Source: an uncultured Flavobacteriales bacterium
GTDB taxonomy: Bacteria > Bacteroidota > Bacteroidia > Flavobacteriales_D > Sanyastnellaceae
DNA length: 64,000 bases
Direction of reading: 5' to 3'
Assembly (NCBI GenBank): GCA_905478325.1
Contig: CAJQIB010000004.1
Coordinates: 62,001 to 126,000 of the forward strand
Position numbers and translations under genes: made by a program. Shown one piece after another: positions 31,169 to 35,584 of this stretch (positions are counted from its first letter, which is position 1; each line of letters opens with the position of its first letter). The notes under the pieces are model-generated. The model searched no databases, had not been told where the DNA came from, and worked only from the letters and a program-made list of their open reading frames with translations.

Positions 31169-31293
31169 TAACTGATCGTGCTGATTTCGAGTGGCTTTAT
31201 TCCAATCTGAGTGGGCCGTTGTTCGTTGTCTGTTCAAAACTCCGCTTCCTTCGCCAAGAACAGCGCCCGATATTCGCAGAGTCTATCAATAAA

Positions 31294-33084
31294 ATGGAAT
31301 CGAGCAACGCAACCTATACCGTATCCGCCCTCAAATATCGTCCACAGGAATGGGACGCCGTTGTAGGACAAGAAGGGATTACACGTACCCTCAGGCAAGC
31401 CATTGATCAAAATCAAGTGGCTCAAGCCTATTTGTTTTGCGGTCCAAGGGGTGTCGGTAAAACCACGTCGGCGAGGATTTTCGCTCGGGCCATCAATGAT
31501 TTTGATGCAAATTCAGGAGAAGACTATGCGTTCAATGTCTTTGAATTGGATGCCGCCTCCAACAATAAGGTTGAAGACATTCGATCCATTGTAGACCAAG
31601 TGCGGATCCCGCCTCAACGCGGTAAGTATAAAGTGTACATCATCGATGAGGTGCACATGCTTTCTCAAGCGGCGTTTAACGCTTTCTTGAAGACGTTGGA
31701 GGAACCGCCGCCTCATGCGGTGTTTGTTTTGGCTACAACCGAAAAGCATAAAATTCTTCCCACGATCCTGTCGCGTTGCCAAATCTTTGATTTCCATCGC
31801 ATCACTGTGCCCGACATGGTGACACATTTGCAGGGCATTTGCACGCAAGAAGGAATCGAAGCCGAAGAAGCTGCTTTGCACGTCGTGGCAGTGAAGGCAG
31901 ATGGAGCGTTGAGAGATGCGCTGAGTATTTTTGATCAACTGGTGGCCTTCGCTGGGAAGAAGTTGACGTACGAGGTGGTAGCGGAGCATTTGCATGTTCT
32001 CGATCATCAAACCTATTTTGAAGTGTTGCGTTGTGCGCTGGCCGGCGAAGTCGCTCCGGCACTGCTGGTCCTCGACGGGATCATCGCACGCGGTTTTGAC
32101 CCCCATCACTTTATCTCAGGATTGGGATCCCACCTGCGCAGCTTGTTGGTGAGTAAAGATGCCTCCACGGTTCAGCTCATGGAAGGAACGGATGACCTGC
32201 GAAGGCAATTTGTTGAGCAATCGCAACAGACGGATTTGCACTTTCTGGTTCAAGCGCTCGATCATGTGAATAAAGCGGATGTTCAATACCGAGGTAGCAA
32301 TCACCAGCGACTCCTTGTTGAGCTTACGCTGATGCAAATCTGCTCCCTTCGAGGAGTGGATAAAAAAAAAAATAGCCTCATAGCGATTCAAGCGGATGCT
32401 TGGCGGGCGAGCCGCTCAGTGAGCCGCCCCGCAATTCCTCCAACGCAGAAACCTCCTGTAGAGCGCGATGTGGCTCCTGAACCTGCCATGCCTGTGAAGG
32501 GTATAGATGTCGCGGAAGCTCAGCCGATGCCGGTCGCATCCGAAGATGTGATTCCGGCAGCTGTGGCTGCTGAAGAAAGGCAGGAGCCTCAGAAGTCCCC
32601 TGAAGTGGGGGTCTTGAAAAAACGCAGGGTAGCCCTATCGAAACCAAAGTCGCTCCAATCGTTGGTGGTGGACACACCGGAGGTGGTCAAGGAATTCGAA
32701 CCCGTCTTGCGCGAAGAATTTGATTTGGGGCAGCTTCAGGAGGCTTGGAATCAGTTTGCGGAGGTGCAGAGACGAGCGGATCTACTCAATTTAAGTTCGA
32801 CGCTTTTGGCGTGTTCGGTTGGATTGGAAAAGAAACAAATTCAAATCAAGCTGCTGAATAGAGTTCAAGAAGAGCAAATCAAGGAGGTTCGTGTCCAATT
32901 GCTCGAATATCTCAGAGGTGCTTTGAAGAACGATTTCATCGAACTGAACTTGCACGTCCCTGCAGCTGCTGAATCCGAAGTTTCGTCTCAATTCTTAACG
33001 GAACGCGAGCGATACGATGTTTTTGTGGACAAAAATCCACATTTAGACACGTTGAGAAAACGACTGGATTTGGATTTGGGATAA
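31294..33084 (+). CDS. dnaX: DNA polymerase III subunit gamma/tau
   Basis: The clamp-loader ATPase. The 596-residue full-length (tau-like) chain has Walker A GPRGVGKTTSA, DEVHMLS (Walker B), LEEPPPHAVFVLATTEKHKI, sensor residues near SRCQIFDF, domain III ending LLVELTLMQICSL (about 340-352), then a Pro/Glu-rich linker and a basic-to-helical C-terminal domain. The four zinc-ligand Cys usually found after ARIFARAIN are absent. Codons 357-360 are an 11-A run (32362-32372); shifting frame there gives K then TAG, so a gamma-like product of about 360 residues is predicted. The ATG at 31294 fits the family; an earlier in-frame TTG at 31219 adds unrelated residues. Confidence 0.96.
   Translation: MESSNATYTVSALKYRPQEWDAVVGQEGITRTLRQAIDQNQVAQAYLFCGPRGVGKTTSARIFARAINDFDANSGEDYAFNVFELDAASNNKVEDIRSIVDQVRIPPQRGKYKVYIIDEVHMLSQAAFNAFLKTLEEPPPHAVFVLATTEKHKILPTILSRCQIFDFHRITVPDMVTHLQGICTQEGIEAEEAALHVVAVKADGALRDALSIFDQLVAFAGKKLTYEVVAEHLHVLDHQTYFEVLRCALAGEVAPALLVLDGIIARGFDPHHFISGLGSHLRSLLVSKDASTVQLMEGTDDLRRQFVEQSQQTDLHFLVQALDHVNKADVQYRGSNHQRLLVELTLMQICSLRGVDKKKNSLIAIQADAWRASRSVSRPAIPPTQKPPVERDVAPEPAMPVKGIDVAEAQPMPVASEDVIPAAVAAEERQEPQKSPEVGVLKKRRVALSKPKSLQSLVVDTPEVVKEFEPVLREEFDLGQLQEAWNQFAEVQRRADLLNLSSTLLACSVGLEKKQIQIKLLNRVQEEQIKEVRVQLLEYLRGALKNDFIELNLHVPAAAESEVSSQFLTERERYDVFVDKNPHLDTLRKRLDLDLG
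32351..32375 (+). promoter_or_regulatory. Putative programmed slippage/frameshift site in dnaX
   Basis: GAGGAG (32351-32356, Shine-Dalgarno-like) lies five nucleotides before eleven A (32362-32372) and T-A-G (32373-32375). In frame the codons are AAA AAA AAA AAT. A -1 ribosomal shift, or a transcript with one extra A, reads AAA TAG; a transcript lacking one A reads ATA GCC TCA TAG. Both shifted frames therefore stop within four codons. Confidence 0.65.
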
Positions 33085-33166
33085 AACACAGATTCAAATT
33101 CCACGTGGATCGGGACTTTTTCTATTTTCAATTGAACGACTTGACCTCATTAGTGGTTTAAACAAC

Positions 33167-35584
33167 ATGAAGCGCATTTTTTCGGTTTTTACGATTTTTG
33201 CTGTCGTGGCCTTTTCGACGGAAATGTTTGCCCAATCCATAGGGGTGATTCGAGGAAAGGTGACCGATGCGGTGACCAACGATCCCGTTCCCTTTGCCAA
33301 TGTGGTATTGCAGGGTGAAATCAAAGGGACAACGACTGATTTCGATGGTATTTTTGAATTGGCACAGGTTCCTACAGGGCTTCGTAATGTGCAATTTAGT
33401 TTTGTAGGCTACGATGCCATAACCATTTTTGAAGTCGAGGTCACGCCATCGAGACCAGCCGTCATCAGTGTGGTTATGAAGCCGTCGACTGTCGCAATCG
33501 CTGAAGCCGAAGTGCAGGGTTCGCGACGCGCTACGCAAGCCGAAGCACCTCTGAGCGTTCGGAGTTTGGGTTCCAATGAAATCAAGCGAAACCCAGGAGG
33601 AGGTCGGGACATTAGCCGGGCGATTCGCACGTTGCCGGGGGTGGCTGCCATCCCTAGTTTTCGAAACGACATTGTCGTTCGAGGAGGGGCTCCCAATGAA
33701 AATCGGTTTTACATCGATGGCATCGAAATCCCCAACATCAACCACTTCGCGACACAGGGAGCGAGCGGCGGTCCGGTAGGCATGATCAATGTTGACTTGG
33801 TTGAGAACATCGATTTCTATGCCGGAGCTTTTCCCGCAGCCCGTGGAAATGCCCTGAGTTCCGTGATGGAGTTCAGCTTCAAAGAAGCGCGAACCGATGA
33901 ATGGACGGCCAACATGGTCGTGGGTACGAGCGACCTGGGATTGACCCTCGAAGGCCCAACAGGTGAAAAGTCATCGCTCATCATGAGCATGCGCAGAAGT
34001 TATTTGCAGCTGCTTTTCGAGGCCATCGGACTGCCGTTTTTGCCGATCTACAATGACTACCAGTTCAAGTGGACGGCGCGTCCTGATGACCGCAACGCCA
34101 TCACTGTCATTGGTTTGGGGGCGTTGGATAATTTCGAACTGAACTTGGGCATTGCTCAGGACTCCGCCCAAGACAATTATCTTGACCAAGTGGCCATTTT
34201 GGGAGCGTTGGACATCCAACGGCAATGGAACTACACGCAGGGCGTGAAGTGGGATCGGTATCAAGACAACGGAAAATGGACATTCGTCGCGAGTCGGAAC
34301 ATGCTCAACAACCGCGCCTTCAAACACTTGGACAATGACGAAGAGAACCGCTTGATTCGGGATTACCTCTCTCAGGAGATTGAGAACAAGTTCCGGGCAG
34401 AGCGGAAATTATTTCTGAAAGAAGGAATGGAGGCGACCTATGGTGTGTTGTACGAGTATGCTAAATACAACAATAGCACTTCAGAAAAGCGACTGAATCC
34501 AGCCACGGGTGCACTGGAGTCGGTTGACTTCCAATCGGATTTTAAGGCACACAAATACGGCGCATTTGTTCAAGCCAATCGGCGATTGATGCAGGAGCGA
34601 TTGACATTGTCAGCTGGGATGCGTATCGATGGCTCGACGGCTGCGTCGGGGCTGGTGAATCCTTTGAAACAGTGGTCTCCTCGGGTGTCTGCGAGTTTCG
34701 CCTTTGCTCCGGGCTGGACCTTCAATGCCAATGCGGGCATGTATTCTCAACTTCCCGCCTACACCATCCTAGGGTATGCAGTGGGTGATGCGCGCGTCAA
34801 TGCGACGGACTCCACGTCGTATCTCAACAACAGGCAATTGGTTGCAGGTTTGAAGTGGGACGGCAGTGAAAAGAACTTCGTGGTCTCTGTGGAAGGCTTT
34901 TTCAAGGGCTATCAAAACTCTCCGATCAGTTCATTGCAAGGGGTGGCCTTGGCCAATTTGGGAGCGGACTTTGGGGTGGTGGGCAATGAAGCCGTAACCT
35001 TTGATGGATTGGGGCGGTCATATGGGGCGGAACTCCTGCTTCAACAACGTCTTTACAAAGGCTTTTACGGGCTGTTGGCCTACACCTTTGTACGGAGTGA
35101 ATTTGAAGATAGCTCAGGTGAATTTGTTCCGAGCAGCTGGGACAACCGCCATATCCTAAGCATGACGGGAGGGAAGAAATTCGAGAATGGATGGGAAATT
35201 GGGACGCGCTTGCTTTTCAGTGGAGGATTGCCTTACACACCAACGGATGCAGGTTCTTACAGCATTGAAAGTTGGGATTTTTACGGTCGGCCTTTGTTGG
35301 ATTACAGCTTACTGAATTCAGAACGCAACGGGGCATTCCACCAACTGGACATTCGCATTGACAAGAAGTGGTTTTTTGAGCGGTGGTCGCTCGATGTATT
35401 CATGGAAGTACAGAATGCTACTGGTGCGGCCGTTCCGCAACCCAACTTCAGTGATGTGGCACGAAACCCATTGACAGGTGCGCCTGTCCCATCGCAGACC
35501 CAGCCGGGGTTCTATGACCAACGACAAATTGACCCGAGTAATGGAGCGGTTTTACCTGCTTTGGGAATCATCATCGAACTTTGA
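33167..35584 (+). CDS. TonB-dependent outer-membrane receptor with carboxypeptidase-like regulatory domain
   Basis: An 805-residue transporter. A signal peptide (to about 24, ending EMFAQ) precedes a CarboxypepD_reg-like beta domain (GKVTDAVTNDPVPFANVVLQG, about 28-105). The plug domain runs RNPGGGRDISRAIRTLPGV, NDIVVRGGAPNENRFYIDGIEI, and the barrel follows to the end. Without a SusD gene beside it, it is unlikely to be a SusC-type glycan importer; siderophore, vitamin or peptide uptake are all possible. The small membrane-protein gene at 35588 begins 3 bp after its stop. Confidence 0.92.
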   Translation: MKRIFSVFTIFAVVAFSTEMFAQSIGVIRGKVTDAVTNDPVPFANVVLQGEIKGTTTDFDGIFELAQVPTGLRNVQFSFVGYDAITIFEVEVTPSRPAVISVVMKPSTVAIAEAEVQGSRRATQAEAPLSVRSLGSNEIKRNPGGGRDISRAIRTLPGVAAIPSFRNDIVVRGGAPNENRFYIDGIEIPNINHFATQGASGGPVGMINVDLVENIDFYAGAFPAARGNALSSVMEFSFKEARTDEWTANMVVGTSDLGLTLEGPTGEKSSLIMSMRRSYLQLLFEAIGLPFLPIYNDYQFKWTARPDDRNAITVIGLGALDNFELNLGIAQDSAQDNYLDQVAILGALDIQRQWNYTQGVKWDRYQDNGKWTFVASRNMLNNRAFKHLDNDEENRLIRDYLSQEIENKFRAERKLFLKEGMEATYGVLYEYAKYNNSTSEKRLNPATGALESVDFQSDFKAHKYGAFVQANRRLMQERLTLSAGMRIDGSTAASGLVNPLKQWSPRVSASFAFAPGWTFNANAGMYSQLPAYTILGYAVGDARVNATDSTSYLNNRQLVAGLKWDGSEKNFVVSVEGFFKGYQNSPISSLQGVALANLGADFGVVGNEAVTFDGLGRSYGAELLLQQRLYKGFYGLLAYTFVRSEFEDSSGEFVPSSWDNRHILSMTGGKKFENGWEIGTRLLFSGGLPYTPTDAGSYSIESWDFYGRPLLDYSLLNSERNGAFHQLDIRIDKKWFFERWSLDVFMEVQNATGAAVPQPNFSDVARNPLTGAPVPSQTQPGFYDQRQIDPSNGAVLPALGIIIEL

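Follow-up and report, generated by a model that had tools for sequence, protein, structure and literature searches.

An A11 run at the domain III border of dnaX

The dnaX gene, which encodes the tau subunit of DNA polymerase III, occupies 31294..33084 on the plus strand of the window (the whole 64-kb stretch of DNA that was analyzed). Standard decoding from the ATG at 31294 gives a protein of 596 aa, with a computed mass of 66.6 kDa. TIGR02397 matched this protein at 383 bits, above its cut-off of 250, with the match ending at residue 350, and PRK14971 (NCBIfam) scored 649 bits, short of its curated cut-off of 685. Pfam matches were obtained for DNA_pol3_delta2, the ATPase lid, and DNA_pol3_gamma3, and the C-terminal part matched a tau C-terminal HMM, which includes the window's own copy, with an E value of 6e-38.

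Domains I to III, common to tau and to a predicted gamma, are encoded by 31294..32361 (plus strand). They are followed by eleven consecutive A's at 32362..32372, a predicted slippage run that starts at codon 357 and is read as AAA AAA AAA AAT through codon 360. In order, the site comprises an SD-like GAGGAG (32351..32356), GAT (32359..32361), the A11 run, and then TAGCCTCATAG. The codons for the tau-specific linker and C-terminal domain (32373..33084) are reached only if the run is read as 11 or 11 + 3n A's; in computed translations, the long frame was kept with 11 or 14. One extra A, or a −1 ribosomal shift, leads to a TAG at 32373..32375 and a predicted gamma of 360 aa (40.2 kDa) with the C-terminal residues KKKK, while one A fewer leads to a TAG at 32381..32383 and a predicted gamma of 362 aa (40.3 kDa) with the C-terminal residues KKKIAS. 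The PF12169 (domain III) match ends at residue 358, inside the first codons of the run. An earlier note on this DNA had placed the A11 run at codons 357 to 360, with stops within four codons in both shifted frames, a break at the end of domain III, and a gamma-like product of about 360 residues near 40 kDa; the sequence and the computed translations bear out each of these points.

A run of at least 10 A's is not, by itself, improbable within 64 kb. Shuffled sequences contained a mean of 0.93 matches, and the 2 overlapping matches seen in the window were equalled or exceeded in 26 of 100 shuffles. The 2,375,099-base genome holds 34 distinct runs of A9 or longer on both strands (counted from 48 overlapping matches) and two A11 runs, the dnaX run included. 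The other A11 lies on the minus strand of contig C57 (98 to 108), where it stands 27 nt ahead of a plus-strand ORF of 364 aa (135 to 1229) and is also overlapped by mechanical minus-strand ORFs. The dnaX run stands above chance because it is conserved in relatives.

Conservation of the run among relatives

We compared 295 dnaX loci, 292 of them distinct in domains I to III (there were three identical pairs). They came from 56 same-order genomes, phylum and class samples, and 80 organism-titled loci. A true dnaX, judged from E values, was present in 56 of 60 same-order genomes, the window's own included. The titled loci were the best 80 of 593 candidates; the phylum and class samples used 70 of 126 matches in one set and 100 of 146 in another, the rest of the latter being already in the collection; and L059 and L073 were left out as repeats. 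The run was scored in the stretch between 30 nt ahead of and 170 nt past the point where the domain I to III match ends.

A run of A9 to A13 was found at the site in 247 of the 295 loci, a share that is no unbiased estimate because the fetched subsets were chosen by hand, mainly one or a few per family and, beyond an even automatic draw, without randomization. The modal length was 10: runs of 9, 10, 11, 12, and 13 A's occurred in 30, 191, 24, 1, and 1 loci. The other 48 loci had a longest A stretch of 2 to 7 at the site, and none of the 295 had a longest run of exactly 8. Run length thus shows a sharp threshold, at 9 A's, which is also the length that a survey of bacterial slippage worked with, as described in the passages cited here (PMC1088944). 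Outside the site, these genes held 8 runs of A9 or longer in 463,130 bp. Among distinct loci, the run was carried by 223 of the 254 counted as Bacteroidia (the same class by kinship, with the 80 titled loci assigned from their titles alone) and by 21 of the 38 from other classes of the phylum. The site is thus conserved in most sampled Bacteroidia and in about half of the sampled loci of neighboring classes.

Within the window's genus, a true dnaX was found in 19 of 22 genomes (own included), and all 19 carried an A10 or A11 run; 17 were fused in frame, one (L007) had tau in the +1 frame, and one (L009) was cut off. Six loci, namely, L296, L309, L310, L333, and L334 (Prevotellaceae, Bacteroidaceae, or Bacteroides) and L304 (Bacteroidales), had a fused tau and no run of at least 8 A's at the site, which therefore seems to have been lost in that group. 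Absence of the run from 48 loci, including all five titled Bacteroidaceae, Bacteroides, or Prevotellaceae, suggests that gamma is not needed by all.

The run was found in each of the three codon phases, 10 being its most frequent length in every one, and so it encodes different residues in different genes. Lysine stretches of at least 3 at the site had only AAA codons in their interior in 173 of 177 cases, while such stretches elsewhere in the tau part did so in 1 of 25, and AAG made up 2046 of the 6009 lysine codons in domains I to III of the collected genes. The three phases and the AAA-only stretches indicate selection on nucleotides and not on lysines.

Three arrangements of the tau-coding part

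An HMM built from 139 in-frame loci was used to call the tau domain at E values up to 1e-3. Among loci with both the run and a detectable tau, the tau part was fused in frame in 149 (the window included), lay one frame back (split −1) in 73, and lay one frame forward (split +1) in 15. L301 was excluded from the split set since its run is intact and its frame breaks only some 150 codons farther downstream. No tau match was obtained for nine run loci; eight had less than 500 nt of sequence left, and the ninth, L127, had a 222-aa open −1 frame through the run.

The zero frame closed within 60 codons in 93 run loci. Tau was found in the −1 frame in 73 of them and in the +1 frame in 15, and the remaining 5 either lay within 400 nt of a contig end (4 loci) or had the 222-aa open −1 frame (L127). 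That the short genes had simply lost tau was therefore rejected: 88 of the 93 have it in a shifted frame. Loci without the run comprised 42 fused genes, one split +1 gene (L321), and five without a tau match. L321, from a Bacteroidales MAG, has a zero-frame stop and tau in the +1 frame, yet no A run, and reflects either an error or another mechanism.

Arrangements differed even between close relatives. The window gene (A11, fused) shares 90% of its residues with L007 (A10, +1), and L107 (A9, −1) and L108 (A10, fused) have 98.7% aa identity. On a FastTree tree of domains I to III, at least 49 arrangement changes were required (an exact number is inflated by tree error), against a mean of 75 and a minimum of 70 in 50 shuffled labelings. 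Arrangement is thus inherited and not noise, yet it is labile. The split −1 arrangement was found in four of five titled Flavobacterium loci (L279, L288, L290, and L303, all A10). The fifth, L287 (Flavobacterium sp. YO12), has an A9 run that turns the −1 arrangement into +1, by a real change or a sequencing error. Flavobacterium johnsoniae is presumably split −1 as well, while the four titled loci from Pedobacter or Aquimarina are fused. In a 0.49-Mb single-contig genome of the same class (L243), dnaX stops just where domain III does, and a search of that genome with the tau C-terminal part encoded in the window gave no match at E values up to 1; this may be a replicase that naturally has gamma alone, or one whose tau has diverged beyond detection.

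Paired stops in the non-tau frames

Slippage would yield mRNAs in all three frames, and both non-tau frames would then be expected to close soon after the run. In 138 of 149 fused genes, both closed before 10 codons had passed, compared with 29.2% of the 1705 positions that follow other AAA codons in these genes. The third frame was closed in 68 of 73 split −1 genes (null, 58.1%) and in all 15 split +1 genes (null, 50.4%). Genes without the run had both frames closed in 10 of 41 cases, against 17.4%.

The enrichment persisted when the collection was thinned to one locus per 70% identity cluster, which left 84 loci. Both frames were closed in 43 of 50 fused (null, 30.2%; p = 4e-16), 25 of 29 split −1 (null, 29.4%; p = 3e-10), and 4 of 5 split +1 genes (null, 20.1%; p = 0.007). 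For the third frame of the split −1 genes alone, the count was 25 of 29 against 60.3% (p = 0.0025). A −1 ribosomal shift never enters this third frame, and its closure therefore speaks most directly against purely ribosomal −1 shifting, with moderate strength in the thinned set. The earlier note had predicted a programmed slip producing a gamma-like DnaX and had named a long A run with nearby stops in relatives as a check on it; the prediction is supported both by the run in 247 of 295 loci and by the strong enrichment of nearby stops in both non-tau frames.

Transcriptional slippage and ribosomal frameshifting

These results suggest that slippage of transcription on the A run very probably makes both tau and gamma from one dnaX gene. 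RNA polymerase would slip on the run to give mRNAs with more or fewer A's. Those with 11 (or 11 + 3n) A's would encode full-length tau, and those with other numbers would run into the stops just past the run in both other frames and yield gamma, a product of about 360 aa with domains I to III only. Slippage would fill all three frames at the mRNA level; in that case, the tau part may sit in any frame at the DNA level, and it has switched many times. The run, its conservation, the three arrangements, and the paired stops are observed in the sequences; the slip at transcription, its efficiency, and the existence and clamp-loader role of both proteins are inferred.

Ribosomal −1 frameshifting on the run, of the E. 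coli dnaX type, would instead be the source of gamma where the gene is fused and of tau where it is split −1. We consider it unlikely: it leaves the 15 split +1 genes and the closed third frame unexplained, and at least 9 A's are maintained though 7 would suffice for a −1 shift. The run codons of the window include an in-frame A_AAA_AAA, as such a shift could use, and lack an in-frame A_AAA_AAG heptamer. AAG, the E. coli slip codon, is the last run codon in 33 of 73 split −1 genes, in 45 of 149 fused genes, and in 4 of 15 split +1 genes. The 37 tRNAs of the genome include a single tRNA-Lys (UUU), and in the passages cited, one tRNA-Lys is held to favor ribosomal shifting in E. coli, whereas Thermus has two (PMC5009743, Atkins et al.). 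Runs of AAA lysine codons are also known to make ribosomes slide, according to the cited part of PMC4363877.

Slippage and SD-assisted shifting had both been put forward in the earlier note; the first is favored here, and the second is doubtful. An SD-like core was found upstream of 63 of 247 runs, a twofold enrichment over control windows (12.6%). Broken down by arrangement, the counts were 38 of 149 (fused), 13 of 74 (split −1, with L301 counted), and 8 of 15 (split +1), so cores are no commoner in split −1 genes than over all runs. SD sequences are not recognized by Bacteroidia ribosomes according to the passages cited from PMC9976891, which, with a core at 63 of 247 runs, makes SD assistance doubtful. 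SD stimulation appears weak, and the GAGGAG at 32351..32356, a feature not generally conserved in relatives, probably has no function here.

A GC-rich stem downstream of the run, also described in that note, can be drawn with −23.0 kcal/mol over 68 nt, a stability no greater than that of shuffled sequences (z = −0.31), and is not conserved. It is kept in L004 (99% identical) but not in L005 and L006 (95%), and the regions from L005, L006, and L007 fold with z scores of −2.02, −0.79, and 0.75 through pairings other than those of the window stem. The stem was therefore rejected as a stimulator. Over the collection, downstream folding was slightly stronger than in control windows (mean z of −0.63, −0.57, and −0.48 against −0.26), and z fell below −2 for 29 of 237 loci compared with 17 of 237 controls, yet no downstream stem was conserved, and Rfam identified no known RNA element in 31200..33200 at E values up to 1. 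The single tRNA-Lys, the SD enrichment, and the slightly stronger folding do allow for some ribosomal contribution, and a mixed transcriptional and ribosomal mechanism is possible.

The site sits in the linker after domain III, where a lysine-rich segment with no decoding role might arise incidentally. This reading is very improbable in view of the codon choice, the threshold at 9, the three phases, and the paired stops, and it is contradicted by the 88 split genes in which tau is out of frame with the gene start. Phase variation at the DNA level, in which the run would change length between cells and switch tau on and off, is slightly less probable again. Length and frame do differ between close relatives such as L107 and L108, but the run keeps tightly to 10 A's whatever the arrangement, two closed frames fit production of two proteins better than an on/off switch, and tau belongs to the essential replicase. 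Assembly or sequencing error in the homopolymer, which may affect single genomes such as L287 (A9 where four other titled Flavobacterium loci have A10) and L301, was rejected as having next to no likelihood, since the A11 and its frame are common to four genomes of the genus (own included), the split −1 arrangement recurs in Flavobacterium, and arrangement follows the tree.

Comparison with known dnaX systems

Transcriptional slippage is the established mechanism in Thermus thermophilus dnaX, where it takes place on an A9 run and yields tau and gamma at 1:1 (passages of PMC1088944 and PMC5009743). Three features of that system, at least 9 A's at the tau/gamma border, tau in a single ORF, and nearby stops in both shifted frames, are present in the window dnaX. 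As far as the cited passages describe it, the Thermus gene likewise has its run in the later part of the gene and stops in both other frames, and its gamma comes from mRNAs of altered length. The differences are that the window has A11 and its relatives A9 to A13, that the phylum is another one, that the window genome has one tRNA-Lys and not two (PMC5009743, in the part cited), and that the window's relatives, unlike Thermus, alternate between three frame arrangements.

Antonov et al. (2013) listed 17 two-ORF dnaX genes from 12 genera and proposed transcription slippage for them; every one is −1 in its DNA, and nine have 10 A's (PMC3711429, in the sections cited). Gene and kind of A run are the same as in the window, and from these sections the cluster appears to equal the split −1 arrangement of the window's relatives. 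The two-ORF layout, with a zero-frame stop after the run and tau in the −1 frame, was found in 73 relatives, unlike the window, which is fused; +1 and fused arrangements, found here, contrast with the 17 listed genes, all of which are −1. The same sections regard transcriptional realignment as indicated where gene clusters that share a function shift frame in opposite directions (PMC3711429), and Bacteroidota dnaX shows such opposite directions. E. coli dnaX resembles the window gene in principle, with tau in the 0 frame and gamma after a −1 shift, but the window lacks an A_AAA_AAG heptamer and an Rfam match, and neither its SD nor its stem is conserved.

In kind, then, dnaX slippage is already known from the cited parts of this literature, as the Thermus mechanism and as the two-ORF class with 10 A's of 2013. 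In the portion of the dnaX and slippage literature covered, which took in 8 of 458 matches in one case and, for the 2013 paper, sections of its main text, we found no report of near phylum-wide conservation of the run, of the +1 arrangement, of repeated switching, or of the paired-stop signature.

Implications

A 2012 review states, in the passage cited, that beyond enterobacteria and Thermus most bacteria keep no dnaX frameshift signature and may not make gamma (PMC3290774). With the signature in 223 of 254 distinct Bacteroidia loci, the disputed question of whether gamma is needed can be tested in many culturable species, and dnaX becomes a natural reporter for slippage by RNA polymerase. 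Slippage that yields a shorter product was called difficult to detect in the cited part of the 2005 survey (PMC1088944); the paired-stop test provides a comparative means of finding it. Split dnaX genes would encode tau only via the slip, and a gene model ending at the zero-frame stop would miss it.

On balance, we favor the view that most Bacteroidota dnaX genes are frame neutral: an A10 run would supply every frame in a constant proportion, both gene halves would be able to drift freely against each other and would have switched frame tens of times, and selection would keep only the run length and the stops in the two non-tau frames. If this is true, gamma would be a conserved product throughout the phylum, made by RNA polymerase and not by the ribosome, which would fit ribosomes that ignore SD sequences.
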